This document shows, in pieces, positions 344 through 18,769 of a stretch of DNA of 32,122 bases (position 1 is its first letter; every line of letters begins with the position of its first letter). The DNA is taken from positions 1-32,122 of the forward strand of contig CAMWUH010000003.1 of the NCBI GenBank assembly GCA_947177325.1, written 5' to 3'. Made by a program: the position numbers and the translations under genes. This stretch comes from an uncultured Bacteroidales bacterium. GTDB lineage: Bacteria > Bacteroidota > Bacteroidia > Bacteroidales > Muribaculaceae. Under the pieces are notes generated by a model. The model saw only the letters and a program-made list of their open reading frames with translations. It was not told where the DNA came from and ran no database searches.

Positions 344-829
344 ATGCTTTACGATTTTTTTATCATTCATTATCTTGAATTTTGTGTGTGGCTAACTATT
401 GTTTATGTAGCCGTAACCGTGGCCGTTGCCTTAGACCTCATTACCGGCATCCGCAAATCGCGCATCAACGGCACGAAAATGAACTCGCGCGGACTGAAGC
501 GCACCTGCAGCAAGTTGACCCACTATCTTTTGCCTATGGTTGCTTTCACGCTCGTCGATGTAGTGATTGCAGTGAAGTTCGCTGCCCCCTGGCTCACTTT
601 GACCTATGGCGCTTTCTGCATCATCTGCGAGGCGTGTTCGATATTTGAATCGGCCGCCGATAAACGCCAGCTTCGTCGATCGGCCGACATGCTTGCCCGC
701 TTGCGCAAACTCGATAATAAGGAGGCTATCGACTTGCTTGAGCAATTAATCCGTGAATTTACCGAGCGCCAAGTCAGTGGCGATGAGAAAAAGTGTGAAA
801 TGACTGCCGGGAAAGGGGGTGAACAATGA
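344..829 (+). CDS. Phage holin family protein
   Basis: 161 aa with several hydrophobic segments (VWLTIVYVAVTVAVALDLITGIRKS...; LLPMVAFTLVDVVIAV). Resembles the phage_holin_4 type; followed by an overlapping amidase. Confidence 0.75.
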   Translation: MLYDFFIIHYLEFCVWLTIVYVAVTVAVALDLITGIRKSRINGTKMNSRGLKRTCSKLTHYLLPMVAFTLVDVVIAVKFAAPWLTLTYGAFCIICEACSIFESAADKRQLRRSADMLARLRKLDNKEAIDLLEQLIREFTERQVSGDEKKCEMTAGKGGEQ

Positions 830-1251
830 GTTCAGCTACATCTCAGCCGCAAGCTCGCTTGATAAATTTGATTGTGGTGCACTGCTCGGCCACGGAGCAA
901 GGGCGTGATTTCTGCGCTGCCGACATTGACCGCTGGCATCGCGAGCGCGGGTTTGCCCGCATCGGCTACCACTATGTTATCCGTCTTGACGGCACTATTG
1001 AGCAGGGGCGCCCTGAATCGGCCGTTGGCGCTCACTGCCAGGGCTATAATTGCAACTCTATCGGCATCTGCTATACCGGCGGCCTATGTCGAGGGGTGCC
1101 GGCCGATACTCTGACCGAGCCGCAGCTTGCATCATTGCGACGATTGATTGCCGATTTGAAAAGACGCTATCGGGGGGCGCGGGTAGTTGGGCATCGCGAT
1201 TTAAATCCCCACAAAGCTTGCCCATGCTTCGATGTGGCTGCCCGACTTTAG
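826..1251 (+). CDS. N-acetylmuramoyl-L-alanine amidase (Amidase_2-type endolysin)
   Basis: IVVHCSATEQG..., GYHYVIRLDGTIEQGRP, GAHCQGYNCNSIGICYTGG and VVGHRDLNPHKACPCFD retain the amidase_2 zinc-ligand pattern. ATGA overlap with the holin. Confidence 0.9.
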   Translation: MSSATSQPQARLINLIVVHCSATEQGRDFCAADIDRWHRERGFARIGYHYVIRLDGTIEQGRPESAVGAHCQGYNCNSIGICYTGGLCRGVPADTLTEPQLASLRRLIADLKRRYRGARVVGHRDLNPHKACPCFDVAARL

Positions 1252-2366
1252 TCAATGATTATCCGGGCGGCACGCTCGGGCGCGTTGAGCTCGGGGTTGA
1301 GGCGGGCGCGCATTTCGGCGTAGCCGTGAAGCTGCTCTTGTCGCTCCGGAGTGTCAGCAAGCAGAGGTGTCAGCCGGGCATCGACTGCCTCGGGGGTGCA
1401 TTGGTGAAGCAGCATTTCCGGTATGATTTCGCGATCGGTAATCAAGTTGGGAAGTGACACGAATTTCACTTTCAGCAGACGCTTGAACAGGTTGTAGGTC
1501 AATCGGCTTCCGTTAGCGCGGTAACACACCACTTGGGGCGTTCCTAACAGGGCGGCTTCAAGGGTGGCCGTACCGCTGGTGACGAGGGCGGCTTCGGCGC
1601 CTGCCATCAGGTCGAATGTAACGCCGCTGAGGCGTGGCAGACTTGACAAGCCGTTGTAGAAATCGTCGCCAATTCCCGGGGCTGCCGCCACTACGGCTCT
1701 GAATTCAGGGTGACGCTTTGCCACTGACTCCATTATAGGCAAATTATTGCGGATTTCGGCTTTTCGGCTGCCGGGCACGAGCAGCAGGAGTTTGCCGTCG
1801 GCCGGTGCTCCGGCTCGCTCCAACAGTTCTTCGCGGCCAATAATCGTTTTTCGCCGTTCATCAACTTCAGCCAGCGAGGGATTGCCCACGTATATGGCTT
1901 CATAGTCGTGGCGCTCCCGGAAATATTTCGGCTCAAAGGGGAGTATCGACAAGATTCTGATGCCCAGTTTCTTGAATTGCTTCACGCGCCCCTCTTTCCA
2001 TGCCCACACTTTTGGCGATATGTACCAATAAACCGGTATCCCCATCTCAGCAGCCTCACGCGCCAGCTTGAGGTTAAATGAGGGGTAGTCAACCAGCACT
2101 AATCGGTCGGGCTTGGCTTGTCGCAGTGCTTGTCGGGCCGTCGAGAGATTGCGCATCACTGCCTTCAAGTGCTTCACAACCTCCACAAATCCCATATATG
2201 CCATTCGGTTGTAGTGAATCACCGGAGCGTGACCTGCAACCTCGGCCATCATGTCGCCGCCTAAAAATGTAAATTGCGCTTCCGGGTCTGCCACGCGTAG
2301 TGATTGCATTAATTGCGAGGCGTGGAGGTCGCCCGAGGCTTCGCCGGCTGAAATAAAATAGTGCAT
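1248..2366 (-). CDS. lpxB: Lipid-A-disaccharide synthase
   Basis: MHYFISAGEASGDLHASQLMQSL, FLGGDMM, YISPKVWAWKEGRVKQ and LVTSGTATLEAALLGTPQVVCYR. Start set at MHYF; the supplied ORF extends upstream to 2423. Confidence 0.93.
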   Translation of the reverse strand: MHYFISAGEASGDLHASQLMQSLRVADPEAQFTFLGGDMMAEVAGHAPVIHYNRMAYMGFVEVVKHLKAVMRNLSTARQALRQAKPDRLVLVDYPSFNLKLAREAAEMGIPVYWYISPKVWAWKEGRVKQFKKLGIRILSILPFEPKYFRERHDYEAIYVGNPSLAEVDERRKTIIGREELLERAGAPADGKLLLLVPGSRKAEIRNNLPIMESVAKRHPEFRAVVAAAPGIGDDFYNGLSSLPRLSGVTFDLMAGAEAALVTSGTATLEAALLGTPQVVCYRANGSRLTYNLFKRLLKVKFVSLPNLITDREIIPEMLLHQCTPEAVDARLTPLLADTPERQEQLHGYAEMRARLNPELNAPERAARIIID

Positions 2367-2703
2367 AGTTGGGGGAATTGTGAAGTGTATTGCAAATTTA
2401 CCATATTGGCAAGAAAAAAGCAAGAAGCGGCAGACGGCAGCAATAACGGGAATTGATTAGATGTGATGTAAATGTAACAGGAATAAAACTATTGTAACCG
2501 TAATGTATTAAATGAAAAATTAGATTTTTTTAAAAATATTTCGTCTTATAAACTGTTGTAAAATAGCAAAATACGCGAAATTCAGTATTTTTCTTGGAAA
2601 AAATTCAAAAATAATCTGAACAAAACAAAATTTGTCAATGTTATATAATCGTAACAAAGATGTAACTAAGTGATGTTTGTGTAACATGATTGAACTTTCT
2701 TAA

Positions 2704-2744
2704 AGACCTACAGAATTCACTATTCAGACCTTAAGAATTCACTA
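2704..2744 (+). repeat. Tandem repeat, 2 copies of AGACCT(AC/TA)AGAATTCACTA, period 22
   Basis: 2704-2722 AGACCTACAGAATTCACTA and 2726-2744 AGACCTTAAGAATTCACTA; 17/19 identical. Confidence 0.85.
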
Positions 2745-2767
2745 CATTTCCTTTGAACTATCAGCTG

Positions 2768-2801
2768 ATGCTCCGGTCCCGAAAGCCGGAGCATTTTTTT
2801 T
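2768..2801 (+). terminator. Rho-independent terminator
   Basis: ATGCTCCGG-tcccgaaag-CCGGAGCAT followed by a T run. Confidence 0.85.
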
Positions 2802-2837
2802 GCTTGTACCGTAGCATTGCTTCCCGCAAAGAAATAA

Positions 2838-2874
2838 TCTCCCCTCTCTGCGCCGATGGCGGGGAAAGGGGAGA
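2838..2874 (-). terminator. Probable terminator downstream of the GH31 gene
   Basis: Imperfect TCTCCCCT.../...AGGGGAGA stem with a T-rich tail (ATTATTTCTTTG) on the minus strand. Confidence 0.5.
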
Positions 2875-2888
2875 CTATTTATAGTGGC

Positions 2889-5273
2889 TTATTTAATGGT
2901 TGCTTTGATATCGCCCGAAGCGGGGCAAACTACTGTGAATTTCAGGCAACGGAGTTTTTTGGAGTAGCTGAATTTCAGTTTTTGATTGCCTGCGGTCACT
3001 TGACTCGGTTTGCGGTTAACATCGTAGATTTCAATGTTGAAGGTGGTTTCGGGCGTGTCAGGAGAGCCGGATACGGTCAGCGTTTTTTCGCCGTTGTTGT
3101 CCACTTCAAGGTAGAGGCCGAAACCTGTCAATTCGTCAGCTGTTGGTTTGGAGCCTTGCGGTATGGCAAGCATCCCTACTGCTTCACCGTCGGCGGTGGG
3201 GAAGATACGGGCTGTGAAGAGGTCGTTGCGATAGTCGGCGGTAGAGGTCATGGGATAGTCGGCCATGAAGATGACAGAGCCGTCGGCAGCATAGTGGGGC
3301 AACACATTCAGGGGTGCCTTAACAACCTCGGTATTGCCGCCGGTGATGATGGTGGCGGGGTTGTTGAGGTCAAACCATCGGTTGCCGCCGGGGAAGAACA
3401 CCGGGCGCTCCGTGGTGCCGGGGGTAAGCACAGGTGCCACCATCACATCCTCGCCCCACATAAATTGGTCGACTATAGTATCGGTAGCGGCTGTCAGCGA
3501 ATTGTCGCGGAAGTTGAGGGGACGCACAAGCGATGAGCCGTAAACGTGGTTGTCGAAGGCCAGCGTCACGTTGTAGGGGAGCCAACGATAGCGCTCTTTG
3601 ATGATGGGAAGGAGAATTTCTTTTTCAAGCTCAGGGTAGTTGAAAGGCTCGGCATATTCCTGAGCGTGAGTGCGGAGCATCGGGGAGAAGAGCCCGAGTT
3701 GCAGCCATCGCACATATAGCTCCGGCAAGAAGGGGTTTTCGGGGTCAACGGCAAATCCGCCTACGTCATGGCCCATATAGCCAAGGCCGGAAAGGCCTGA
3801 GTTGATCATGATGGGGATTTGGGCCTGGAGGCCGGCCCATGAGCGCGACACGTCGGTCGACCAGGGGAACACGCCGTAGCGTTGCAGGCCTATAGTGCCG
3901 CCGCGCATCATAATCATGGGACGCTCGTCGGGGAAGTTTTCAGCCAGCATGTCAGCGATGATTTTCGACCATTCGTTACCGTAGAGGTTATGGTATTGGC
4001 GAGTGGTCAGGCCATTATGGTGAACGAGCGAGTCGGGGTGAACTTCAGGTTCGCCCAAGTCGCCCCAGAAGCCGTCAACGCCGTCGAGGTGCATCTGCTT
4101 GTATTGCTCGGCAAGCCATGAGCGGGTGGCGGGGTTGGAAACGTCGAGCATGCCGCCTTCGCCCACCCAGATTTTCACTTCGCCGGGGCGTCCAAGCGAG
4201 TCGGGCACGAGCATACCGTTCTCGGCCAGGAAGTTATAGTTGTCGATGCCACGGCCGTTGCGGAGCACGTAGGGCTGCGAGATGCTGACGAGGTTAACGT
4301 TCTTGTCTTGCAGGGTCTTGAGCATCTGCTTGTAGTCGCCCCATTGCTCGGGGTCCCAGGCCAAGCGGCCCATATCCTGCTCTTGGCCATACCAGTAGAG
4401 GTCGAGCACGATGCCGTCGAGCGGATAGCCGGCTTGCTGCAGGCGTTCAACGGTCCGGAGAGTTTCGTCGGCGGTTTTGTAGCCATATTTCGAGGTGATG
4501 TAACCGAGGGTCCAGAGCGGGGGGAGGGGTTGAAAACCGGTGAGGAATGCTGTGGCGCCAACGGTTTGCGACAGAGAGGTCTGCTGGTTGTCGTCGAAGA
4601 GGGCGGCAACATAATATGTGATGGGATAGTTGGCCTCTGATGTATAGGTGATTGGGTCGGAGAGTACCAGCTCGGCAGCGGCATAGTCGTCGAAGATGAG
4701 AGCGAAGCCGCCCGACGTAATCACCATAGGCATGGTGATGTTCATTTGAGAAATGCGAGGGTCGCCGGCTCCGTAGCCGTAGTTCTGACGGTTATACATC
4801 ACAAGGGTGTCGCCGGCTAAGTTAACCTTGTGGCCACGCTCGCCGGCGCCGTAATACGACAGGCCGGCCGGGGTAGTGAGCTGCATGGTGCGGAAGCCCT
4901 CGGGAGTAATGCCGCGCATGCCGGTGTCGATGATGTTGGCGTCGCCGACTTCTATTGAAACTGCACCTGAGTTATTGTTGAGCAACACATTGATGGGCTG
5001 CACCGGCGACGACAGTGTCTGGGTGTTGCCGACGCGCGAGGTAGTGGCCTCAAACTCTTTATAGGTTTGCAGATTATCCAACGCGATAACCTTCGAGTCG
5101 GGTATGACTTCACCGACAGGAGCGTTGGTGATACGCACAGCGAAGGGGGTAACCATAGTCGCGGTTACCTGACGGCCGTCGCGAGTGATGGTAGTGATTG
5201 AATTTCGCTCTTGAGCCACGCTTGCAACGAGCGAAGCAGCCATGATGAGCGATGTAACGATTATTTTTTTCAT
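2889..5273 (-). CDS. Glycoside hydrolase family 31 (alpha-glucosidase / 4-alpha-glucosyltransferase-like), secreted
   Basis: Signal peptide MKKIIVTSLIMAASLVASVAQ; GH31 motifs GIVLDLYWYG, GVDGFWGDLGEPE and MMRGGTIGLQRYGVFPWSTDVSRSW. Confidence 0.9.
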   Translation of the reverse strand: MKKIIVTSLIMAASLVASVAQERNSITTITRDGRQVTATMVTPFAVRITNAPVGEVIPDSKVIALDNLQTYKEFEATTSRVGNTQTLSSPVQPINVLLNNNSGAVSIEVGDANIIDTGMRGITPEGFRTMQLTTPAGLSYYGAGERGHKVNLAGDTLVMYNRQNYGYGAGDPRISQMNITMPMVITSGGFALIFDDYAAAELVLSDPITYTSEANYPITYYVAALFDDNQQTSLSQTVGATAFLTGFQPLPPLWTLGYITSKYGYKTADETLRTVERLQQAGYPLDGIVLDLYWYGQEQDMGRLAWDPEQWGDYKQMLKTLQDKNVNLVSISQPYVLRNGRGIDNYNFLAENGMLVPDSLGRPGEVKIWVGEGGMLDVSNPATRSWLAEQYKQMHLDGVDGFWGDLGEPEVHPDSLVHHNGLTTRQYHNLYGNEWSKIIADMLAENFPDERPMIMMRGGTIGLQRYGVFPWSTDVSRSWAGLQAQIPIMINSGLSGLGYMGHDVGGFAVDPENPFLPELYVRWLQLGLFSPMLRTHAQEYAEPFNYPELEKEILLPIIKERYRWLPYNVTLAFDNHVYGSSLVRPLNFRDNSLTAATDTIVDQFMWGEDVMVAPVLTPGTTERPVFFPGGNRWFDLNNPATIITGGNTEVVKAPLNVLPHYAADGSVIFMADYPMTSTADYRNDLFTARIFPTADGEAVGMLAIPQGSKPTADELTGFGLYLEVDNNGEKTLTVSGSPDTPETTFNIEIYDVNRKPSQVTAGNQKLKFSYSKKLRCLKFTVVCPASGDIKATIK

Positions 5274-5352
5274 GATTGAAACCGGTTAAGATTGCAGTTT
5301 ATGTAGATTGATTGAGATTGGCGGTATATTGAAAAACCCAATTGGGTTACCT

Positions 5353-6009
5353 TTATTTGCGGTTGAAGTCGGCCGGAATTTCGCCCCATCGGTCTGTGTC
5401 CCATTTTAGGATGCGCGAGTGGTAGGGGTGGGATTGTATCCAGGCATCGGCACGAGCCAGCAGTTCGCGAATTTTGGCGTTTTGCTGAGTAGGCTTGAGA
5501 GTGGATTTATTTCCGCGGTTGCGAATCCACGACTGTGCGGTGCGCGAGTCAGAGTAGATGACTGTGTGGTCGTTGCCGTTTTTGTTGAGGAGGGCGAGGG
5601 CGTGGATGAGCGCCAGATATTCGGCAATGTTGTTTGTGCCCCCTTCGAGCGGCCCCACGCGGAAAATTTCAGCGCCGGTGGCAGTATCGACACATCGATA
5701 TTCAATCGGGCCGGGATTTTTGGAGCAAGCGCCGTCGACACAAATCGAGTCGCGGATAACGTCGGGGTGCTCGTCGATGTTGAAGGTAGCGAGCGAGTCG
5801 GCACGGTGGGAGGCAATGGCGCGAAGCATCGATTTCTGCTCGTCGGGGTCGCCACGAAAGGCTCGTGTGGCCATCTCTTGCGTAGGGAAGGCTTTGAACC
5901 GCGCTCCCGGGAAGCCGTCGATTTGCAGCTTTGCCTCCTCCCATGAGTCGTAGATGCCGGGGGAGTAGCCTACCCACACAACATAGAATTTCTTTCTGTA
6001 TTCACCCAT
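5353..6009 (-). CDS. rnhA: Ribonuclease H1 with N-terminal viroplasmin-like domain
   Basis: KKFYVVWVGYSPGIYDSWEEAKLQIDGFPGARFKAFPT (viroplasmin fold) plus ICVDGACSKNPGPIEYR, GTNNIAEYLALIHAL and YSDSRTAQSWI. Confidence 0.93.
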   Translation of the reverse strand: MGEYRKKFYVVWVGYSPGIYDSWEEAKLQIDGFPGARFKAFPTQEMATRAFRGDPDEQKSMLRAIASHRADSLATFNIDEHPDVIRDSICVDGACSKNPGPIEYRCVDTATGAEIFRVGPLEGGTNNIAEYLALIHALALLNKNGNDHTVIYSDSRTAQSWIRNRGNKSTLKPTQQNAKIRELLARADAWIQSHPYHSRILKWDTDRWGEIPADFNRK

Positions 6010-6024
6010 ATAGATCTTCAGAAT

Positions 6025-7200
6025 TTACATCAGTTGGAGGAAAATAGTTATGTCGGTGGCGCGACACTTCACGAGGCGGCCAACTTCGCGATTGGTCACT
6101 TTGCCCAGGAAAGTGAGCACCGCACCGCGCAGCCCGGGGGTGAGTTTCAAGGCGTTGGTGACCCCTTCACACACCATCACGTCATCGAGCAGCGTGTTGA
6201 GCGAGTTAGACAGAGCCATGGCCGCCGTGCGAGGCACAGCGTTGCCGGGGTTGACATAGACCTTGCGGCGGTCGATACCGGCCGCTTGGCGTGCCTCTGA
6301 CAGGTCGATGCAAGGGAGTGAGGGGAAAAGGCGGCCGGCACGGGGAGTCAGGTCGTAAATAAGCACTCCGCGCTTCATTTGCTCCACCATCATGGCGTCG
6401 ATGGCAAAGGTCGACGGGAAGCCGCCGGTGGCGATGACCACATCGGCCGAGCGGAGAGCCGACTCGACTACCTTGGCGTGGCAGGCCGAACCTATGATTT
6501 GCGGGCCGAGGTCGCGGATGGCTGAGCGGAGCGAGTAAACATCGTTGTCAAACATTCTGACCATCGCACCCAATCCCGTAGCTGACCTTGCGGCGGCGAT
6601 AGCTGCCAGTCCCGAGCCGAAAATGGTTACTTCGCAGGGCACAATCCCGGCTACTCCGCCGAGCAATATTCCTTTGCCTGATTGCGAATCGGCAAGCAAT
6701 GATGAAGCTAAAGCAATGGCTGCCCGGCCGTCGATTTCGGCTAAAATGTCGGCAAATGGATGGTTGCCGCGAGGGTCGGTGATAAGGTCAAGGGCAATGG
6801 TGACAATGCCGCGCATGAGCATCGCATTGATTGCCGAGGGGTGCCAGCGCTCAAGGTGCATCAGAGTGAGCAGCATGGCTCCGCGGCGCATCATGTCGAT
6901 GTCGGGGCGTTGAGGCTCGGCAGTGTAGATAACCACATCGGCAGCAAGCGCTGCCGCGCGGTCGGCAATCTCGATGCCTCGGCGGGCGTATGCGTTGTCG
7001 TTATAGTGGATTGGGTCGGCAGCCCCGGCTTCGATAATTACGCGGTAGCCTCGCTCCAAAAGCGTAGCCGCCCCCTCGGGAGTCAGAGGAAAGCGGTGTT
7101 CCGAATCAGAGTGAATGGCGGGCAGCCCTATTGACAGTTTGCGACGCGAGGTTGCTATCTGCGCAGGCTGCTCAAGCGGGGAGCCGTAAGGGTTTATCAT
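6025..7200 (-). CDS. Alanine dehydrogenase / PNT-like protein (divergent)
   Basis: IGLPAIHSDSEHRFPLTPEGAATLLERGYRVIIEAGAA; Rossmann segment VTIFGSGLAAIAAARSATGLGAMVRMFDND; SADVVIATGG. Confidence 0.75.
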   Translation of the reverse strand: MINPYGSPLEQPAQIATSRRKLSIGLPAIHSDSEHRFPLTPEGAATLLERGYRVIIEAGAADPIHYNDNAYARRGIEIADRAAALAADVVIYTAEPQRPDIDMMRRGAMLLTLMHLERWHPSAINAMLMRGIVTIALDLITDPRGNHPFADILAEIDGRAAIALASSLLADSQSGKGILLGGVAGIVPCEVTIFGSGLAAIAAARSATGLGAMVRMFDNDVYSLRSAIRDLGPQIIGSACHAKVVESALRSADVVIATGGFPSTFAIDAMMVEQMKRGVLIYDLTPRAGRLFPSLPCIDLSEARQAAGIDRRKVYVNPGNAVPRTAAMALSNSLNTLLDDVMVCEGVTNALKLTPGLRGAVLTFLGKVTNREVGRLVKCRATDITIFLQLM

Positions 7201-7757
7201 GATTGAGTCAGAAATTGTGATATAAATCGATTGGCTGATTGGCTGACTTGCTCGTCGGTTTCGAGTTGGGAGGCGTCGAATCGGTGAGGCGTCAGACTGT
7301 AGAATGGTTGACGCTGCTCCAGGGCGTTGACCACAAAGGCGTGGAGCTCGTCGTCGGGCAGATTGGCGACCAACGGACGGCGTGAGCGCTCAATGCGCAG
7401 GCGCTCTACAATGCGCTCGGGGCTGACCTGAAGCCACACGGGCACCCCTCGGCTAAGCATTAGCTCCATGTTGCGGCCATGGCAGGGGGTGCCTCCGCCA
7501 CAGGCTATAATGAGTCGGCGAGAGCCGTCGGCGCGGGCGCAGAGCTCGGCCAGGGCGGCGGTTTCGCGGCGGCGAAACTCAGCTTCGCCATATTGACGGA
7601 ATATTTCAGGTATTGACATGGAAGAGTCGGCCTCGACATAATCGTCGAGGTCGACAAATTCGATGTCGCCGGCCATTTGAGCCAGCTTGCGGCCTAAGGT
7701 GGTTTTACCCGAGGCCATATAGCCTAAAAGAAAGACAGGTCTGCGGGGTTGTTGCAT
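7197..7757 (-). CDS. aroK: Shikimate kinase
   Basis: VFLLGYMASGKTTLGRKLA (Walker A), FVDLDDYVEADSSMSIPEIFRQYGEAEFRRRET, IIACGGGTPC. Confidence 0.93.
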   Translation of the reverse strand: MQQPRRPVFLLGYMASGKTTLGRKLAQMAGDIEFVDLDDYVEADSSMSIPEIFRQYGEAEFRRRETAALAELCARADGSRRLIIACGGGTPCHGRNMELMLSRGVPVWLQVSPERIVERLRIERSRRPLVANLPDDELHAFVVNALEQRQPFYSLTPHRFDASQLETDEQVSQSANRFISQFLTQS

Positions 7758-8203
7758 TATTTTTGGTTAGCCTGACCTTTGGCAAGAAGGTCGCGGATTT
7801 CGGTAAGGAGCACCTCTTCCTTGGTGGGTGCCGGTGGTTCAGCGGGAGCTTCTTCCTCTTTTTTCTTGAATTTTTGGATAAAGCGGATAGCCATGAAGAT
7901 GCAGAAGGCGATGATCAGGAAGTCGATGATGTTTTGGATAAACAAACCGTAGTTGAAGGTAACGGCATCGACAGCTGCGCCGGTAGCTTCGTTGATTTCG
8001 GTTTTTGACCCTTCGCGAAGCATGATGTAGAGGTGGTCGAGTCGCTGACCGCCGGTAGCGAGGCTGATAAGAGGGGTCAAAAGGTCGTTGACCATAGAGG
8101 TGACGATTTTACCGAAGGCACCGCCGATGATCACACCGACTGCCATGTCAACTACATTGCCTTTCATGGCAAAGTCTTTGAAGTCAGAGAGGAATTTTCC
8201 CAT
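7757..8203 (-). CDS. mscL: Large-conductance mechanosensitive channel
   Basis: FLSDFKDFAMKGNVVDMAVGVIIGGAFGKIVTSMVNDLLTPLISL. Confidence 0.96.
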   Translation of the reverse strand: MGKFLSDFKDFAMKGNVVDMAVGVIIGGAFGKIVTSMVNDLLTPLISLATGGQRLDHLYIMLREGSKTEINEATGAAVDAVTFNYGLFIQNIIDFLIIAFCIFMAIRFIQKFKKKEEEAPAEPPAPTKEEVLLTEIRDLLAKGQANQK

Positions 8204-8373
8204 GTTGTTTAATAGTTGTTATAGTGGATGAATAATTTTATCGATGAATTCAGTAGGAGCGAGATTAGATGGGTTGCGAGAGCTAATTTGTAGTTGCCTC
8301 TCTGTTAAATAACCAAAAAGATGGCTAAATAGTTTCAACGCTATGCAAAATTTCGTTGGAGCGCTATGCAAAT

Positions 8374-9042
8374 TTACTGTTTTTTGTCAAGCGATGCAAA
8401 TCTGCGGCGGGCATATTCCACCACTATATCGGCAATATCCTCCATAGGGAGGAGCGAGGTGTCGATCATAAGGTGGTAACTGTCGGGGTGACCCCATCGG
8501 CGGTCGGTATAGAAATTATAGTAGGCGGAGCGGAGTTTGTTGGTTTTTTCGGCCATAGATCGGGCTTTGGAGCGGGAGAGCTCGGGGGTGCGCCCGACGA
8601 TGCGCTCCACGCAGTTGTCGATGGGAGCATAGACAAATACGTTGATCACGCAGGGATGGTCGCGGAGAATGTAGTCAGCCGTGCGCCCTACTATGACGCA
8701 GCTTTGCTGCTCGGCCAGGCGGCGGATTACGTCGCCCTGGGCGTTGTAGATGCGGTCGCCCGAAATCGACGACGGGCCTTGATACCATGAAGATGCCGAC
8801 ATGCCCATATTGAACGACAACACCGACGACAGGAAATTCGGCATCTTTTCATCGTTCTCCTCCACGAAACTCTGGGCCACGCCTGCATCCTTGGCAGCTC
8901 GGCTGAGCAATTCTTTGTCATAGTAGGAGATGCCGAGGCGGTCGGCTATGAGGCGGCCGAGCTGGCGGCCTCCGCTTCCGAATTGTCGGCCTATGGTTAT
9001 CACCAGCGGAGTGGTTGGGGGTTGAGGGTCAGAGTTTTGCAT
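8374..9042 (-). CDS. Cytidylate kinase-like family protein
   Basis: VITIGRQFGSGGRQLGRLIADRLGISYYDKELLSRAAKDAGV; CVIVGRTADYILRDHP. Confidence 0.85.
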   Translation of the reverse strand: MQNSDPQPPTTPLVITIGRQFGSGGRQLGRLIADRLGISYYDKELLSRAAKDAGVAQSFVEENDEKMPNFLSSVLSFNMGMSASSWYQGPSSISGDRIYNAQGDVIRRLAEQQSCVIVGRTADYILRDHPCVINVFVYAPIDNCVERIVGRTPELSRSKARSMAEKTNKLRSAYYNFYTDRRWGHPDSYHLMIDTSLLPMEDIADIVVEYARRRFASLDKKQ

Positions 9043-9096
9043 GGTTTCTGCGAGAGAGGGGGAGAAGTTGGTAGATGAAAAAATTTGGAAAATATA

Positions 9097-9126
9097 TTGT
9101 AAAGTAAAAAAAAGTTGCTAACTTTG
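9097..9126 (+). promoter_or_regulatory. Bacteroidetes-type promoter of SRP RNA
   Basis: TTG (9097-9099), 19-nt spacer, TAACTTTG (9119-9126). Confidence 0.75.
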
Positions 9127-9131
9127 CAGTC

Positions 9132-9226: not shown

Positions 9227-9239
9227 TTTTTTTGTGCCC

Positions 9240-9917: not shown

Positions 9918-10004
9918 AGCTGTATTCAGGTTATTATTGATAAGTATTTATCAGTTTAACAAAGTTACAGAAAATAAATTATTTTCAAAAGGTAGAGGCG
10001 ATTT

Positions 10005-11336
10005 TTATTTCGCCGATGGAGTTGCGGGAGCAGCTTCGCCCACTTGGCGTGGACCTTCAGCTTGGGCAATTTCAATGTTGCCGTGGAATGTAGAGTTGAA
10101 TATCCTCAAGCCGAATTTAGGCGCGGTGGCGGCGATATGCTCGAATATTTGCGAGCGAATAGCCTCGTAGGCGAGCCATTCGGTGGTGTTGGTGAAGCAG
10201 TAAATATCGAGCGGAGTACCGTAGTTGTCGGGGTTCATCAGGCGCACGATGATATTGTTGTCGTTGGAGATTTTGGGATGAGCCAAAAGATATTGACACA
10301 TATAGGCGCGAAACAGGCCGAGGTTGGTGTCGATTGTACCGTTGACCGGAGCCACACCGCCGTTGAACACATTGCCTTGACCGTCGGCGAGAGCTTTGCG
10401 TCGGTTGGCTATGTAGGTGTTCATTTCGGGATAGGTGGCACCCACGGCATTGAGCAATTCTTCAGAGGCTTCGACAATAGAGGTGTTGTCGATGATAACG
10501 GAGCGGTCGATTTGGCGCACGCCAGACTCGCTCATGCCTCGCCAGTTCTGGAATGATGTGGAAACGAGAGTGTAGGGGGGGACCATGACGATGGTGTTGT
10601 CCCAGTTTTGAACTTTCACAACCGATAGAGATACGTCGACAACCACACCGTTGGCAATCGTAGAGGGCACTACAATCCAGTCACCTACACGAAGCATGTC
10701 GTTGCTCGACATTTGAATTCCGGCCACGAAGCCTAATATCGAGTCTTTGAAAATCAACATCAACGCGGCAGCAAAGGCGCCCAGGCCGGCTAACAGTGCC
10801 ATCGGCGATTTGCCGATAAGAATCGATGCCGCAATGATAATGAGAATGGCCCATACAACGCCTTTGATGATGTTGGCCACACCCTTGAGCGGATGGTTCT
10901 CCTTGTTGGCCTTGCGGTCGTAGTTGCTCCAGATGAAGGTGATGATGGCCGACAGGCCTATGCCAAACATTATGACAGTGTAAACACCAACTATCTTGGT
11001 GATATAGTGGAGGGTACGGGAGCCGCTTTCAAATGCAAACGGCACGAGGGCCAAAAACACCAGCGGGGGGATGATGTGGGAGCACTTTGTCAGCGTGTGT
11101 TGCTGCAGAAGCAACTTGCCGAACTCGCTCTTGCGCAACCCGACAATTTTTTTTGCTGCAAACAATATGCCCAATCTGATGAGCCAGCCGATTAATATGG
11201 CGACGGCTACGATAACTATAATGTAGATAATTTCCTCAATGCGTGGGTCGTGTTTTAGACCGAGTGAATCGAGGAAACCGGTTATAGTGTTCAAAATCCA
11301 TTGAGCCACTTGGTGGGTAGGTATTGCTGCTATCAT
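10005..11336 (-). CDS. MscS-family mechanosensitive ion channel (YbdG-like)
   Basis: AALMLIFKDSILGFVAGIQMSSNDMLRVGDWIVVPS, GVVVDVSLSVVKVQNWDNTIVMVPPYTLVSTSFQNWRGM. Confidence 0.92.
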   Translation of the reverse strand: MIAAIPTHQVAQWILNTITGFLDSLGLKHDPRIEEIIYIIVIVAVAILIGWLIRLGILFAAKKIVGLRKSEFGKLLLQQHTLTKCSHIIPPLVFLALVPFAFESGSRTLHYITKIVGVYTVIMFGIGLSAIITFIWSNYDRKANKENHPLKGVANIIKGVVWAILIIIAASILIGKSPMALLAGLGAFAAALMLIFKDSILGFVAGIQMSSNDMLRVGDWIVVPSTIANGVVVDVSLSVVKVQNWDNTIVMVPPYTLVSTSFQNWRGMSESGVRQIDRSVIIDNTSIVEASEELLNAVGATYPEMNTYIANRRKALADGQGNVFNGGVAPVNGTIDTNLGLFRAYMCQYLLAHPKISNDNNIIVRLMNPDNYGTPLDIYCFTNTTEWLAYEAIRSQIFEHIAATAPKFGLRIFNSTFHGNIEIAQAEGPRQVGEAAPATPSAK

Positions 11337-11416
11337 AAATAAAGAGTTGATTGACGTGAGAAAAATATGGTAGAGAAAGCTGGATTAAAGCCCCTGTTTA
11401 ACGGGCCCGCCGGAGA

Positions 11417-11881
11417 TTATTTGACCGGGGGCTTCTTGGGCGAGCGCGAAATGGCAATGGGTAGCCGACCCAAGTTAGAGTAGATTGATTGCACTTCGGT
11501 TGAGGTAACCTTGGGGTCGAGGCCACGCTCGGCAATGACTTGACTGACGGCGGCGGCATAGTCGTTGCGATGGAGAGAGTTAAGCTCGGTCCAGTTAACT
11601 CCGGCTAAGTTTTTTGCCAATGCCTCATCATAGGGGAGTTTGCCACGAACCATCAGCAGCGCAATGACCGGATAGCCGGGATAGCCTTGCCAATAAGTGG
11701 CGTTGTCGTTGGAGGAATAAGTGCTGACATCCCAGCTGAGGTCGTAGGTGCGGGTGCCGTCAGAAGAAGTTACTTTGGCGTAGCCTTCAGAGCGCTGAGG
11801 GTCGCCGTCGACAATGACGCGGCCATCGGCTACGGCGGTCAGTGCTTCATAAATTTTTTCGATGGGAGGGAGACGTTTCAT
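11417..11881 (-). CDS. Conserved hypothetical protein
   Basis: Open frame from MKRLPPIEKIYEALTAVADGR; the supplied ORF extends to 11980 but the start at 11881 is more plausible. No family recognised. Confidence 0.6.
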   Translation of the reverse strand: MKRLPPIEKIYEALTAVADGRVIVDGDPQRSEGYAKVTSSDGTRTYDLSWDVSTYSSNDNATYWQGYPGYPVIALLMVRGKLPYDEALAKNLAGVNWTELNSLHRNDYAAAVSQVIAERGLDPKVTSTEVQSIYSNLGRLPIAISRSPKKPPVK

Positions 11882-12012
11882 CGTGTGGAATTTTTGCGGT
11901 TTTATAATTTTAACATTAAAGAGGCTATGAAAGTTGGAGACAATGATAAAAGAAATGAAAAAAATTAGTAAATTAGCCACGAATAACGCGAAAAGCCGCC
12001 AACAGGATACCC

Positions 12013-12795
12013 ATGGAAAAAATCACAGCCATCATTCTCGCCCTTAACGAAGAAGCCCGCATAGCATCGGCCATAGAGTCGGTTCGCCCCATAGCCGATG
12101 AAATCATCGTTGTCGACAGCCTGTCGACCGACGCCACCGTAGAAATAGCCGGCCGGATGGGTTGCCGGGTTGAGAGCCGCAAGTTTACGGGCTTCGGTGC
12201 TCAACGGCAATATGCCACTTCGCTCGCCCGCAATCGCTACGTTATGTTTATCGACGCTGATGAAATCGTTACGCCGGCGCTTCAAGAGTCAATCAAAAAG
12301 CTGTTTGCCGACAAGCCGGCCCATCGCGTCTATTCAATTTCGCGCCTCAACTTTTTCTGCCAGTCACCGGTGAAGCATTGTGGCTGGTGGCCCGACAATC
12401 AGGTAAGGCTTTTCGATAAACGATATGCCACATGGAACTTCCACAACATTGGGGAGCGAGTGATTTTCCCTGACACCGTTACCCCCTTTCAGGTCGACGG
12501 AGAGATAGTGCACCATCGTTGCGCCACTCCCGAGGAATATCGCGACAAGCTGTTTCTGCAAGCTGAAATAGCGGCGCCGGCCATAGCTGTGAAATATCCG
12601 TCAATTCATCCGTTAAAGCCCTCATGGCGATGGCTTGTCAGCTATTTGAAAACGCTAATCGCTGAAGGCGGACTGCTCGAAGGGGGAGTAGGGAGAAAAA
12701 TTGCCTCTATTCAAGCCGGGGCCGAGCGGCACAAATGGGCTCGTGCGCGCCAGACACAACGTAACTTTTCCGTTTCCAATCATCAAGAGCAATGA
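12013..12795 (+). CDS. Glycosyltransferase family 2 (LPS core WaaE/KdtX-like)
   Basis: ITAIILALNEEARIASAIESVRPIADEIIVVDSLSTDATVEIA; FIDADEIVTPAL. Confidence 0.9.
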   Translation: MEKITAIILALNEEARIASAIESVRPIADEIIVVDSLSTDATVEIAGRMGCRVESRKFTGFGAQRQYATSLARNRYVMFIDADEIVTPALQESIKKLFADKPAHRVYSISRLNFFCQSPVKHCGWWPDNQVRLFDKRYATWNFHNIGERVIFPDTVTPFQVDGEIVHHRCATPEEYRDKLFLQAEIAAPAIAVKYPSIHPLKPSWRWLVSYLKTLIAEGGLLEGGVGRKIASIQAGAERHKWARARQTQRNFSVSNHQEQ

Positions 12796-13559
12796 ACGCA
12801 ATGGCAAAGAAGAATGCAGAAATACCGAAAATCATCCACCTCTGCTGGTTTAGCGGACAACCGTTTCCGGTTGAAATCAAATGGTGTCTGGAAAGTTGGG
12901 GCCGCATGCTGCCCGACTATGAAATACGCCTGTGGACAGCACGCGATGCCCGCGCCATCGGCTATCAGTATATCGACCAGGCCCTTGATGCCGGCAAATG
13001 GGCTTTTGCGGCTGATGCCGTCAGATTTTATGCCGTAATGACAGAGGGGGGATGGTATATGGACGCCGACATTCTGCTTCTTAACCCAATTCCCGCTATT
13101 TTCCCCGACAGCTCTTTCCTGGGTTTTAACGAAACGATGCCCTCCGGCATAAATATGCAAGCAGCCATTTTTGCCGGGAAGCCGGGTAATGAGTTCTGCC
13201 GCCGCATGGCCACTCACTACGAAACAGTGCCGTTTATCACTCGCGACGGGCAGCAAAATCTCGTACAAGCCACTACGCTGATGACCGACCTGGCCACGCT
13301 GATGGGTTGGGAGCCGTGGGAGCAAGTGCAAACTATCGCCGGCGACTCCACCATTCTGCCGGGTCTTTACGTGACGCCTGCCTCGAAAGGGGTAGAGCGG
13401 CGTCATGAAGCCTTCGCCCGCCACATTGTTTACGGTTCGTGGCAACCGCGTAAATTCTTCCCTAAGATGCAACGCGCAGTCAAGCATTTCTTTGCCTGGG
13501 TGCGTTACCAACTGGTCCATCTCTCCCATCCCGCCAAGCTCCCTCCTTTAGGGAAATAA
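12792..13559 (+). CDS. GT32-type (DXD) glycosyltransferase
   Basis: IPKIIHLCWFSGQPFP...CLESWGRMLPDYEIRLW; AADAVRFYAVMTEGGWYMDADILLL (DxD). ATGA overlap with the upstream GT2. Confidence 0.9.
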   Translation: MNAMAKKNAEIPKIIHLCWFSGQPFPVEIKWCLESWGRMLPDYEIRLWTARDARAIGYQYIDQALDAGKWAFAADAVRFYAVMTEGGWYMDADILLLNPIPAIFPDSSFLGFNETMPSGINMQAAIFAGKPGNEFCRRMATHYETVPFITRDGQQNLVQATTLMTDLATLMGWEPWEQVQTIAGDSTILPGLYVTPASKGVERRHEAFARHIVYGSWQPRKFFPKMQRAVKHFFAWVRYQLVHLSHPAKLPPLGK

Positions 13560-13570
13560 CTCGGCGGGTC

Positions 13571-14047
13571 TTAGTAGCCGGGTGTCAGGCGCAGTAGTTT
13601 GGCAGCTTTGACATTGGCTTCGGCAAATAGGTCGTGGGTGTTTTCCACGGCTGAGTCGGCACGGATGTTGTAGCAGTTGGCGACATTGACATCAATCGGC
13701 ACCCAAATTGAGGAGAGAACGGAGTAAACAATCGCTTCTTCAATGCTTTTGCGTACCATCGTAGCCGTTACGGCCGGCAGCAGGGAGGACATTTCAATGT
13801 TTAGCTTAATCAAGTCGGAGGCAGAATCGGGCGGAGAGTCAAGCCCGGAATCGACCGAAACGATAGGGGCGAGCCGGGCAGCTACTGTGGCGGCAGCTGA
13901 GGAAATCAGTGGACATAGCCCGCGGGAATTGTCGGCCGAGAGTTGATGCTCGGGATTTGTTTTCTCGTCGAGAAGTTTGCGGAAAGCCGAAAGAGCGGCT
14001 ATCAGGTCGATAATGCGAGCGGTTGAAAGAGAAATAGTTGTTGTCAT
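13571..14047 (-). CDS. Hypothetical protein, last gene of the terL/portal cassette
   Basis: 158-aa open frame colinear with the phage cassette; no family recognised. Confidence 0.6.
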   Translation of the reverse strand: MTTTISLSTARIIDLIAALSAFRKLLDEKTNPEHQLSADNSRGLCPLISSAAATVAARLAPIVSVDSGLDSPPDSASDLIKLNIEMSSLLPAVTATMVRKSIEEAIVYSVLSSIWVPIDVNVANCYNIRADSAVENTHDLFAEANVKAAKLLRLTPGY

Positions 14048-14137
14048 AGTTAAGTGAATTAAATTAAATTATAAGAGTTAGTAAATACGGATTAAGAAGT
14101 AGAGAGGGGGGAGAGAGCCGGCGAGGTCAGGCGCATG

Positions 14138-14635
14138 TTAGAGCAGGCGGCGCGAGCGTCGACGGGTGGTACGCCTGAGTCGACGGCCGGAATGGTATCG
14201 AGCCTGCAGAAGCAGCTTCCATGAATAGGATGGCGAAATGAAAAAAGAAGATGCGCCCCCTTCGGCCATCACACGAGTGACGGCTTCGCTAATGGTAATA
14301 TTACCTACAAAAGTTTGGGTAGCCATAGCCCGCCGGGCCAATTCCTCAATCATGGCTTGGCGCGAATGGCGGTTGGCGGAGTAAGTGATGTGGCCTGCGT
14401 GCTCCCATTGGCGTATCATGGCGGTGACGCGGTTGCGCGCATAGATCCAGGTGACGTAGTAAGCCGGGGCTTCGCTTTGGGCTGTTAGCAGAGCTATCTG
14501 CTTGAGTGAGGCAAGATTGTCGCACTCAAGGCAGTAGCTGATGCGGCGCTGAAACATTCGAGCGAAATCTTTCAGTCGGGCCGCTTGTGAATCACGGGCT
14601 GTGGGCTTCGGCCTACCCTTTAAAGTGGAAGTCAT
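14138..14635 (-). CDS. Hypothetical phage-cassette protein with Arg-rich C terminus
   Basis: 165-aa open frame colinear with the cassette; C terminus RRLRRTTRRRSRRLL. Confidence 0.6.
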   Translation of the reverse strand: MTSTLKGRPKPTARDSQAARLKDFARMFQRRISYCLECDNLASLKQIALLTAQSEAPAYYVTWIYARNRVTAMIRQWEHAGHITYSANRHSRQAMIEELARRAMATQTFVGNITISEAVTRVMAEGGASSFFISPSYSWKLLLQARYHSGRRLRRTTRRRSRRLL

Positions 14636-14729
14636 AGGTTGGTTGATTTTAGTTGTTCATAGGTTTTACATTGCAAAGATAATATCAAGGGTGGGCCAAA
14701 ACGCTGCACAGCGAGCAAAAAAATTGCGG

Positions 14730-16157
14730 TTATGTGGTAAAAATACCGCCAATTTTACCCGAGAGGTTGAGCATCAGCTCATTACGCTGCGATCGGAGAT
14801 GCTGAAAAGTTTTCAGAATGTCGTTGATGGTGATGGTGGCGTTGCGCACCTCGGCTTCGTAGCGTTCGATGCCAACGTTACCGCCACCGCCGGTTTTCCC
14901 CATCAGCGCCTGGCTTACGCCCGAAACGTCCTCAAACATTTTCAGCTGCACAGCCAGCAACTCTTTGGCTATGGCATCGCCTCCCGATGAGCACACCTGA
15001 TGCGGCTCGGCCACAGCAGTTGAGCCGGCGTAGGGGATTACGGCGTCGGGAGCTGACCACATGCGGCTGATATCGTCCCACTCAATTCCCTCAACCTTTT
15101 GCTTCACGGGGAAAAGCAAAGCACCCTTAGCCGAAGACCCCATGATATGGTCAATGAGAGTGATGAGCCGGTTGATTTGAATCTGCTGGTCAATGACATC
15201 CTCAACGAGCGAGTGTACCTCGCCGTCGATAAGCGGGTAGAGCTTGACGACAAAGGGATGGCGAGAGGCAGTTGAGCCGGCGAGCAAAGTGCCGTCGGGA
15301 GCGAGCCACCGGCAGCGCCAAAGCGAGCTGAACTTAGTGGTCAGCTTTATTTCGGCCTCACCTTTGCGGCGGCGCTGACGGTTGAGTTTGATGATTTGAT
15401 TGCGGGTGTCGGCATTGATTTCGGCCGTGGTGGCGTTGACCGGGTCGTGGGCTACCGTGACCGGCATCACCTCCAAAGTCCACACCTCCACCACCCGGCA
15501 ACGGCCCGAAGGAGCGCGGTCAAAGCAGGCATCATCAGGCTCAGAGGCCAGTGGAGAAACGGCGCCCCACCTTTGAGGCTGCTGATAAATTGCGCTCAGG
15601 CGCGTTGCCAAAGCCGGATTGTCAGAGGCAAATCGCATAATGAGCTCGGTGAAGCTCATGTCGTGGAGCATGCCTATCAATTCAATATCCCAGCCGCGGG
15701 GGTCGGTTATGGAGTTGATGAAAAATTTGTCGGGAGCCACATTGTCGACCCACACCCCGGCCCCGTGATGACGGCGTTCGGCAGAGATTTTCTGAATAGC
15801 GCAGCCTGAAATCAAAAACTCTTCGAGATTGCGGGCGTCGAGTTCCTCCAGGTTATTGAGTTGTGAAAGACGGGCAAGCATGGGGTCGGTTATGGGGTTA
15901 TCCTCTTCTAATACACGAAATCGGCCCACGATGCTTTTAATCAGTCGGCGTATGAGATTGTTGGACATCGGGCGGCGACCCCGGCGCAGCTCATGGTCGC
16001 GTTCGGTCATAATCTCGCCTGAGGATGTTTTGATGATATCGCTCCATTGATTGCCGTAGGTAAAGCGTTTGTAGCGCAAGCGACGCGAGCGCAAGTCGGC
16101 GCCGGCGTTCCATGCCCGGCGCGCTTCGCCGAGCAGGCGTAAATCAGTTGAAATCAT
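14730..16157 (-). CDS. Phage portal protein
   Basis: YKRFTYGNQWSDII...ERDHELRRGRRPMSNNLIRRLIKSIVGRFRVLEEDN...; downstream of TerL, with DQQIQINRLITLIDHIMGSSAKGALLFP typical of Bacteroides-phage portals. Confidence 0.8.
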   Translation of the reverse strand: MISTDLRLLGEARRAWNAGADLRSRRLRYKRFTYGNQWSDIIKTSSGEIMTERDHELRRGRRPMSNNLIRRLIKSIVGRFRVLEEDNPITDPMLARLSQLNNLEELDARNLEEFLISGCAIQKISAERRHHGAGVWVDNVAPDKFFINSITDPRGWDIELIGMLHDMSFTELIMRFASDNPALATRLSAIYQQPQRWGAVSPLASEPDDACFDRAPSGRCRVVEVWTLEVMPVTVAHDPVNATTAEINADTRNQIIKLNRQRRRKGEAEIKLTTKFSSLWRCRWLAPDGTLLAGSTASRHPFVVKLYPLIDGEVHSLVEDVIDQQIQINRLITLIDHIMGSSAKGALLFPVKQKVEGIEWDDISRMWSAPDAVIPYAGSTAVAEPHQVCSSGGDAIAKELLAVQLKMFEDVSGVSQALMGKTGGGGNVGIERYEAEVRNATITINDILKTFQHLRSQRNELMLNLSGKIGGIFTT

Positions 16158-16162
16158 AATAG

Positions 16163-16714
16163 TCAGAAATTTTGGTTAATAAAATCGGGAATAGTTGATA
16201 ATAATGAGGGGTCGAGAACGTAGTCGCCTTCAGCCGGCTCGACAACGGCATCTAACTGCTCTAAAACGGGAGCGGCCGCCGAGGTGGAGTAAAGAATCAA
16301 TTTGCGCCCCTCGATGATAGCTACGGGATGGCATGCACCGCCGCGAGTGTAGACTGATTGTTGCAGGTTGGCCAGCCGGGGGTTGTCGGAGGCTGAGAAG
16401 GGAGTGGCGGCTACGCGCCAGTCGGCGAGCTTCACCGCCACAGGGCGGCGACATCGGGCCGGGAGGTCAAATGTCACGATGCCGTCGCTGACAGTGAGGT
16501 TCTTAACATCGGTGGCAACCGACACTACGGGGAGCATATCGAGCGGTGCGGAGTCGAGCAGACTGAGATACCATTGGTTAATCTCCAATTGCAGCAAGTC
16601 GGCAAGGTTGTAGCCGTCGACGCGGCTCAGAGAGGTGTCGGTGCGGAGAGGTATGTGGCCCTTCTTGAGAAGCCATATCTCCGAGAGTTCTTGATAGGAG
16701 TAATGAGTTAGCAT
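16163..16714 (-). CDS. Hypothetical protein between terL and portal
   Basis: 183-aa open frame (MLTHYSYQELSEIWLLKKGHIPLRTD...), 6 bp upstream of portal and 43 bp downstream of terL. Confidence 0.65.
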   Translation of the reverse strand: MLTHYSYQELSEIWLLKKGHIPLRTDTSLSRVDGYNLADLLQLEINQWYLSLLDSAPLDMLPVVSVATDVKNLTVSDGIVTFDLPARCRRPVAVKLADWRVAATPFSASDNPRLANLQQSVYTRGGACHPVAIIEGRKLILYSTSAAAPVLEQLDAVVEPAEGDYVLDPSLLSTIPDFINQNF

Positions 16715-16756
16715 TTGAATTGAGTGTTAAGTGTTAGAGAATCAGGGTAGAGGGAG

Positions 16757-18769
16757 TTACCAGCGGAATTGGTAGAGGTAAGAGGCCATGTCGGTATCGG
16801 AGGCGTCAGAAACATTAAGGAAATCGGCAGTGGCGGCCACCTCGAATGCAATGGCGCGAGCCATGACGAGGTCGTCGTGATGGCCTTGGGAGGCGCCGAA
16901 AGCGCGAGTGCCGGGAACAGCCTCATAGGTGGTCAGCTCGTTGAAGGCCTCACGACTGCGCTCAATCCAGCCGCTGTCGCGCACCATCGCTATCAATCGG
17001 GCAATGATAAACGTTTTGGTCGAGCGGTTGACGTGGAAGCCGTAGCTGCCCCCTTGTCGGGTGTAAAGATTGGAGTAGCTGTCGGCGATCTGAGCCAAGA
17101 TGTAGTCGGCCGGCTCACCCTCTATAGCCTCGTGTTCGAGCGTGTTGCTTTCAAACACGAGCAGCCCGCGATTGTAATAAGTGGCTAACTGTGTAGCTTT
17201 CCATGCGAGGAGGTCGTGGTCGATATGTCCGCGCCACTGGGCCACAATAGCCGGCAGGGAACAGGAGTGGCCCGGTGGCCCGATGCTGACCACTACGATT
17301 ACGCTCCAGTCGGCTTTGGCCGAGCGACCGCCTATATCGACGGCCACCACATAGCGTTGGTCGGGTTTCGGGCGTTCCCAGACTTCGAGATTTCCGTTGG
17401 CCGCCGGTTGCAGTTGCAGTTGTTTAAGGGAGGCATTGCCGGTGATGTTACCCCCTTTGGCCACGATGTCGCCTTTGAATGACGGCGCCTCGACATATTG
17501 CTCAAGTTTTTGCAGATTTTCGCGGTCAAACACGCAGAGGTCCGTAGCCATAAAGGCCTCGTCGGGGGTAGAAGGGAACTCGGCCATCATGCGGTAGACT
17601 GATTGCTGCTCGCGTCGGCGGTGGCGATACCAATTGATTTGCGAGAGCGACAGGCCGCGGTCCCAAAGCCGGCGCTCTTCGTCGGTAAGCGACTGAGCGA
17701 GGGTTGCCGGGTCGTCGGGCGTGGTGCGATAGATTTCGATTTCATACCACGGCACGAAAATCGGGCGCTTGTCGCTTTCGCCCGCCACTGCCCGCAGCCA
17801 CTCGTTGTGGAAGTAGTTGCCCACCCCATTGGCCGTACTCTCGATAACAATCAGAGTCATAGGCTTATAGTTGATAGAGCCGCAAATTGCGGCGATAAAG
17901 TCCTCGGGGCGTTGGCTGGGAGTGTCGCGCCAATATGCAACCTCAGTCAAATGGGCCATAGCGATGTCAAAGCCGCGCATGGCGTCTTGATTTTCCGATG
18001 TCGAGAGCGTAACGCAACATTCGCGTCCGGCAATCAAACGGGTGTTTTGCGAGCCCTGAAATGCCTTGAAAGCCGGTTTTTCATCCTCTCGCCAATATTC
18101 GGCCGGATAATTTTCGAGAATACGGCTGTACATGCCGCGGATGTTGGCCGCCGAGTCTTTGATCTGGGCGCTGATAAGTGAGTTCCAGTTTCGACGAAGG
18201 CAGCACTGAATCCACGCCATATAGGTCTGGATAAACGTTGAAGCGCCCCATTGGCGCGCCTTGAGGAGAATGAAGCGCAGTGGACGGTCGGCGAGGCGAT
18301 CCTCCTCAAGTTGCGCCAATACCCGGCGTTGGGCGTGATTGAGGCGAAACGGCACAATGCGGGCGCTATCTTTCTCTTTGATTTTGGCGCAGGTTATGGC
18401 CCAATATTCGAAATCGTGGGCGCAGCGGAGATAGCGGAAGTCGGCGGCCGATTTAACGCGCGTGTATTCGGGATCGGCGAGCATCGATTCGGGAAGCCAA
18501 AGGGTTGAGTAGTTGGCATAACGGCAACGGTTCACTTCGCGGCGCGGGCCGGTACATCCGCGGCCGGTAGCGGGGTCGTAGTCGTTGCGGAGTAAGAAAG
18601 CTTTTTCGCGGCGAGCGTTCTCCTCAAGCATAGCTTTGATTTCGGGTGAGAGATGATTGGAGCGAGCAGCGGCGAGGTCGGAACGGGTTGATGCAGCTGT
18701 ATTGGCCGCTTCACTCAAATTAGCTGCAGCTAATGATGTTGTTGATGGTGTTGTTGAAGATGTTGTCAT
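16757..18769 (-). CDS. terL: Phage terminase large subunit
   Basis: ATPase motifs FILLKARQWGASTFIQ, MAHLTEVAYW, TLIVIESTANG; nuclease motifs VVAVDIGGRSAKADWSVIVV, LLVFESNTLEHE, GHHDDLVMARAIA. Confidence 0.93.
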   Translation of the reverse strand: MTTSSTTPSTTSLAAANLSEAANTAASTRSDLAAARSNHLSPEIKAMLEENARREKAFLLRNDYDPATGRGCTGPRREVNRCRYANYSTLWLPESMLADPEYTRVKSAADFRYLRCAHDFEYWAITCAKIKEKDSARIVPFRLNHAQRRVLAQLEEDRLADRPLRFILLKARQWGASTFIQTYMAWIQCCLRRNWNSLISAQIKDSAANIRGMYSRILENYPAEYWREDEKPAFKAFQGSQNTRLIAGRECCVTLSTSENQDAMRGFDIAMAHLTEVAYWRDTPSQRPEDFIAAICGSINYKPMTLIVIESTANGVGNYFHNEWLRAVAGESDKRPIFVPWYEIEIYRTTPDDPATLAQSLTDEERRLWDRGLSLSQINWYRHRRREQQSVYRMMAEFPSTPDEAFMATDLCVFDRENLQKLEQYVEAPSFKGDIVAKGGNITGNASLKQLQLQPAANGNLEVWERPKPDQRYVVAVDIGGRSAKADWSVIVVVSIGPPGHSCSLPAIVAQWRGHIDHDLLAWKATQLATYYNRGLLVFESNTLEHEAIEGEPADYILAQIADSYSNLYTRQGGSYGFHVNRSTKTFIIARLIAMVRDSGWIERSREAFNELTTYEAVPGTRAFGASQGHHDDLVMARAIAFEVAATADFLNVSDASDTDMASYLYQFRW

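Follow-up and report, generated by a model that had tools for sequence, protein, structure and literature searches.

A dispersed set of phage-derived genes in Muribaculaceae as a candidate gene transfer agent

The stretch of DNA analysed here (positions 1 to 32,122 of contig CAMWUH010000003.1, assembly GCA_947177325.1, 32,122 nucleotides; in the following called the window) stems from an uncultured Bacteroidales bacterium of the family Muribaculaceae and carries a lysis module and a packaging module of phage type in two separate places. We consider it likely that both belong to an ancient gene transfer agent (GTA) of the Muribaculaceae, with genes dispersed over the chromosome and derived from a short-tailed temperate phage with an SU10/crAss-like head and neck. 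The system, known here from its genes alone, is a strong candidate and not a proven GTA. A preliminary description of the window had already proposed a split and domesticated GTA-like system, which is largely supported by the dispersal of the genes, their vertical inheritance and the purifying selection acting on them.

Lysis, packaging and capsid genes behind a shared promoter box

All genes of both modules listed before are present and intact in the window, and family-model searches confirmed the holin, endolysin, terL and portal among them. The lysis module on the plus strand is formed by a holin of 161 amino acids (aa) (344-829; Pfam PF05105, Phage_holin_4_1, 8.6e-8; phrog_199, holin) and an endolysin of 141 aa, an N-acetylmuramoyl-L-alanine amidase (826-1251; PF01510, Amidase_2, 1.6e-21; phrog_822, 9.4e-60). 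The packaging module is encoded on the minus strand in the order terL for the terminase large subunit (16757-18769, 670 aa; phrog_2, 4.7e-22), the gene of a 183-aa head-tail connector or tail-ring protein (16163-16714), a portal gene of the P22/SU10 type (14730-16157, 475 aa; PF16510, P22_portal, 8.8e-14; phrog_156, 6.9e-33), a 165-aa gene (14138-14635) and, as the last gene of the operon, a small 158-aa gene (13571-14047). As described before, about 12 kb of ordinary genes lie between the modules, among them lpxB, GH31, rnhA (RNase H), aroK (shikimate kinase), mscL, the signal recognition particle RNA, mscS and glycosyltransferases, and polA, dxs and others are likewise found among the ordinary genes between or around both modules.

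Both modules are preceded by an identical 23-bp box, GGAGGGGATATTTTGAGATTTTT, located at 171-193 (plus strand) for the lysis module, with the -7 element TAACTTTG at 211-218, and at 18824-18846 (minus strand) for the packaging module, with the -7 element TAATTTTG at 18806-18799, so that the motif TAnnTTTG is equally spaced in both. The window belongs to a draft genome of 1.98 Mb (G000; 84% complete, 259 contigs), in which we counted 23 copies of the box at ≤3 mismatches and 0 for a reversed-pattern control. TAnnTTTG follows at the same spacing (+/- one base) after every box with enough downstream sequence, except for the one on contig C141. In Bacteroidetes promoters TAnnTTTG serves as the -7 element, and the box therefore probably represents the upstream part of a promoter class of its own. 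The common promoter architecture first noticed in the window is confirmed. Reading the other box sites led to contig C201, which has a scaffold-like gene (163 aa) and the gene for a major capsid protein (424 aa; PF17236, SU10_MCP, 6.4e-45; phrog_26635, 1.3e-75; the gene runs to the contig end), and to contig C137 with an 894-aa phage-derived protein. The earlier expectation of a capsid module elsewhere under the same box was therefore correct. The family of the 894-aa protein has phage homologs; the version in the prophage shares 45.9% identity with a BS-TP4 protein, BS-TP4 being a Bacteroides phage.

In species of the same genus the box is replaced by GTATGATTTTGACGCAT, which stands with similar spacing upstream of terL, holin-amidase and the 894-aa homolog, and in G002 also upstream of scaffold-capsid. 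In some of these relatives GTATGATTTTGACGCAT is also located upstream of ordinary host genes, for example a threonine-dehydratase-like and an acetate-kinase-type operon (named by eye), and the regulator is therefore not exclusive there and the box may not be dedicated. This would fit a general host promoter that the phage genes carry by chance, with no co-regulation of the loci. We regard this as very improbable, as G000 has 23 sites in all, including those of the window operons, the capsid and the 894-aa gene, and as three of the four GTATGATTTTGACGCAT sites in G006 belong to phage-derived operons.

The statement in the preliminary description that the window holds no tail gene has to be revised. 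The predicted model for the family of the 183-aa protein (predicted local distance difference test, pLDDT, 90.8) was compared by Foldseek with the PDB, where the tail barrel ring protein of phiCrAss001 (7qoj, 4.8e-5) was the best match, followed by the SU10 tail. Against BFVD it matched proteins of crAss, Cellulophaga and SU10-like phages, one of them labelled 'Head to tail adaptor'. A PDB sequence-profile search with the 183-aa and 894-aa proteins gave no match. From its predicted likeness to phiCrAss001 and SU10 we classify the 183-aa protein as a tail-ring protein, and since the model resembles phage ring proteins the window does hold a tail or neck gene. Profile matches of the 165-aa family (down to 9e-20) fall on the gene that immediately precedes terL in phages L247-L254 and prophages L037/L038. 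A small terminase subunit (TerS) is usually encoded at this position, and the 165-aa gene likely encodes one. The 158-aa gene has few and weak homologs, one of which (9.6e-4) adjoins the lysis genes of a prophage. Homologs of the holin adjoin the amidase in genus relatives and have their own box upstream. In these relatives holin and amidase are followed by a third gene (L208:1387-1890, about 166 aa), which begins like a lipoprotein, possibly encodes a spanin and was not seen in the window.

The box also precedes other genes and a family of noncoding loci. On C70 (L094:3396-4130, minus strand) and C82 (L095:6800-7408, minus strand) it stands directly upstream of two similar-looking uncharacterised proteins, which are candidates for regulators or particle parts, and at the site on C80 a low-complexity secreted protein is encoded. 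About 15 box sites of G000, three of them truncated at contig ends, are followed by a noncoding unit and no protein gene; the 12 complete copies lie on contigs C35, C160, C219, C10, C42, C51, C55, C60, C108, C161, C7 and C203 (e.g. L092:750-1090). At the transcript start these copies have TGAAAAGCTTTTCA in common, and GTAGYCGRCTAC follows about 50 bases further. They contain two conserved palindromes, often an ATG with an immediate stop codon, a middle part that varies and a hairpin resembling a terminator, with a total length of about 200-330 bases. No Rfam family was matched, and the conserved pattern was found in 0 of 398 other Muribaculaceae genomes. The family is species-specific and RNA-like, and of all parts of the regulon it is the one we can explain least. 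In G002 a leader motif, GAGNACATTGACATTTTGGA, is repeated just downstream of the promoter at unrelated loci (L212, L214, L216, L218 and L220) and is possibly an analogue of this family.

Distribution, inheritance and selection in the Muribaculaceae

Related genomes, most of which are metagenome assemblies, were searched as well. The terL gene was found, usually as a single copy, in 368 of 399 Muribaculaceae genomes from 29 of 30 genera; of the 224 genomes with a completeness of 90% or more, 212 have it. Among a set of 41 relatives the portal is present in 24, all of them Muribaculaceae and together 24 of the 25 family members in the set, and the capsid is found in 23 of these 25; the capsid gene also occurs in Duncaniella muris DSM 103720. 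Across the family the genes are arranged as a scaffold-capsid-183aa-portal module, often with the 165-aa gene behind it, and a separate 894aa-terL module. In complete genomes terL and capsid are separated by 48 kb to 2.5 Mb. The distances read were 2.5 Mb (G078), 956 kb (G013), 130 kb (G146), 103 kb (G016), 61 kb (G237), 48 kb (G111, a single contig) and merely ~8 kb (G009), and in most relatives terL and portal/capsid are far apart or on separate contigs. In G000 and its relatives the phage-derived genes occupy at least four separate chromosomal loci.

In the trees of terL, portal and capsid the chromosomal copies form one clade each with a support of 100, apart from phages and prophages, and the terL and portal clades also exclude the prophages carried by the same genomes. 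Compared with the host PolA tree, terL reached a quartet agreement of 0.69 (null 0.33) and a Mantel r of 0.71, and the portal 0.76 (null 0.33) and 0.50. Such co-inheritance with the host across a family is a hallmark of domestication. The ratio of nonsynonymous to synonymous substitutions (dN/dS), obtained by simple counting and with many synonymous distances near saturation, was 0.06-0.15 for terL, 0.11-0.20 for the portal, 0.07-0.08 for the capsid, 0.05-0.11 for the amidase, 0.12-0.26 for the ring gene and 0.16-0.34 for the 894-aa gene.

These data also bear on a recently split or decaying prophage as the source of the genes. Contiguous relatives do exist in the same genus (prophages G001:C21 and G007:C3), but they are separate and distant copies, with terL only 36-37% identical to the domesticated terL and outside its clade; moreover, the dispersed form is family-wide, reading frames are intact and dN/dS is low, and we therefore find this explanation practically untenable. 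A recent split is ruled out by the family survey and the trees, and relaxed selection by the low dN/dS. The preliminary description had named a contiguous prophage at this site in relatives and relaxed selection in terL, portal or amidase as findings that would speak against it. Neither was found: in most relatives terL lies apart from portal and capsid, and dN/dS is 0.05-0.20 for the three genes.

Phage relatives and other Bacteroidales families

For nearly all dispersed parts there are homologs in phages or prophages with contiguous genes, which comprise the two prophages mentioned above, IMG/VR contigs and the Bacteroides phages BS-TP4, BKO1-TP3 and BF1-TP2. The Bacteroides phages and the two prophages share with the Muribaculaceae loci homologs of terL (36%), capsid (37%), portal, ring protein, the gene in TerS position, the 894-aa protein and the amidase, and the closest TerLs and capsids among phages are those of Bacteroides phages. 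They differ in being contiguous genomes of 64-68 kb, and the contiguous relatives add an integrase-like (in the prophage) and a methyltransferase-like open reading frame (ORF; both named by eye), fibre-like ORFs and giant ORFs of 1871-5391 aa, none of which we found in the dispersed Muribaculaceae loci. Neither an integrase nor a replication gene was found among the dispersed genes. Scanning IMG/VR with few peptide patterns, and thus not exhaustively, gave a closest viral TerL of 39% identity and no match for the capsid. These results fit with there being no free close relative, and as the best viral TerL is just 39% identical the domesticated lineage appears old and separate. The terminase large subunit of BS-TP4 (L375:20340-22436, PQ571277.1) is labelled 'tail spike protein' in the public record.

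A search across the order with one genome per family revealed capsid matches near 50% in six other Bacteroidales families. In five of them (L368, L370, L371, L372 and L373) the capsid module adjoins the same fumarase-like gene, which is 82-92% identical. Fibre-like ORFs, the ring gene or genes of lysis type lie close to it, and neither portal nor terL was found within ~10 kb. In the capsid tree these embedded copies are the sister clade to the Muribaculaceae and all embedded copies together form one clade (support 99), so that, judging from the tree, the domestication seems older than the Muribaculaceae. The fumarase-side arrangement is a different but related domesticated form. A seventh match (37%) belongs to an ordinary prophage. 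A much wider proposal, in which an order-spanning GTA of gut Bacteroidales arose from crAss/SU10-like short-tailed phages before several of the families separated and the box-driven noncoding loci (at least 12 in G000) mark or control the chromosomal sites at which packaging begins, appears improbable to us.

A candidate gene transfer agent and its alternatives

In the proposed model a host regulator acting at the box would switch on all modules together, presumably in a subset of the cells. Heads would then be built by the scaffold and capsid protein, the genes of which are present, and DNA would be packed through the portal by TerS and TerL. The packed DNA would mostly be host DNA, given the large distances between the genes and the lack of any integrase or replication gene found among them. 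The ring protein, for which there is fold evidence, and putatively the 894-aa protein would close the head and form a short tail, holin and amidase would, as their families suggest, lyse the cell and free the particles, and these would deliver the DNA to other cells.

According to Kogay et al. 2022 (PMC9662315) GTAs are recognized by proteins that derive from tailed phages and can form a particle of that type, endogenised and often multi-locus genes, and mostly vertical inheritance with co-diversification, and further by a gene set too large for one particle, packaging of mostly random host DNA and delivery to cells. The genes agree with the first three: TerL, portal, SU10-type capsid, tail ring, holin and amidase are of tailed-phage origin according to family models and fold, the genes are endogenised at several loci in G000 and relatives, and vertical inheritance follows from the terL distribution (368/399), the own clades, the agreement with PolA (weak for the capsid) and the fumarase synteny in five other families. 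The other three concern the contents of the particle and their delivery, and as the analysis covered genes we speak of a strong candidate rather than of a proven GTA. With loci up to 2.5 Mb apart, joint packaging in one particle would seem implausible. A temperate prophage should be contiguous and possess integration and replication genes, and here the modules are dispersed between housekeeping flanks.

Several observations weigh against a GTA, in addition to the host operons behind the box in genus relatives. For the capsid the agreement with the PolA tree of the hosts is weak (quartets 0.47, null mean 0.32, null maximum 0.45; Mantel r 0.15, p ~0.19, not significant), and no dedicated regulator of the box was identified. 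The fold prediction for an 894-aa homolog from three sequences was unusable (pLDDT 30), leaving phage homology as the basis of its tail role. Neither a receptor-binding fibre in the Muribaculaceae set nor, as genes alone were read, a particle, packaged DNA or transfer was seen.

The missing fibre would also fit a domesticated particle like PBSX of Bacillus subtilis, which packs host DNA without delivering it and would be kept for killing competitors, self-lysis or resource release. The same gene anatomy would serve such a particle, and PBSX, a defective phage particle, indeed packages host pieces of ~13 kb and kills without transfer (PMC7667829). PBSX is, however, a contiguous prophage, and killing normally needs a variable receptor-binding part, which is not seen here; a large fibre-like ORF does occur in the loci of other families, yet there is no evidence of killing. 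We hold this for a serious but clearly less probable explanation. Another possibility is that the capsid genes serve some purpose besides DNA transfer, such as a protein compartment, with terL and the lysis genes retained for assembly or release, and the uncharacterised genes on C70, C82 and C80 as well as the noncoding loci in the regulon could be taken in its favour. This is improbable, as the joint conservation of TerL, portal, capsid and ring protein under purifying selection suggests that a motor for DNA packaging is in use.

Among the known systems, RcGTA of Rhodobacter capsulatus and relatives (Rhodogtaviriformidae) resembles the candidate GTA of the Muribaculaceae in that phage-derived structural, packaging and lysis genes are fixed at several host loci (five in R. 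capsulatus; PMC9662315), inherited vertically and controlled by the host. In contrast, RcGTA has a long tail and most of its head and tail genes in one cluster (PMC9662315), whereas in Muribaculaceae a distance of 48 kb to 2.5 Mb usually separates even terL from the capsid gene, the neck is of the SU10/crAss type, the host belongs to the Bacteroidota and the closest relatives among phages infect Bacteroides. BhGTA (VSH-1) from Brachyspira probably also has its genes at several separate loci (PMC9662315), but its host phylum is unrelated. Full-text searches of open-access papers found no GTA in Bacteroidota. The system would add an independent phage-to-host domestication with unusually dispersed genes in a phylum for which none was found in the literature.

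Judged from the genes, it is probably a bacterium-owned vehicle for moving the host's own DNA. Gut Bacteroidales are known for high rates of gene exchange. Particle sequencing from the mouse gut revealed many Bacteroidetes contigs with transduction patterns, and about a quarter of all patterns were of unknown type (PMC7667829). If our interpretation is true, a nearly universal particle system of the Muribaculaceae would offer a cause for such patterns.

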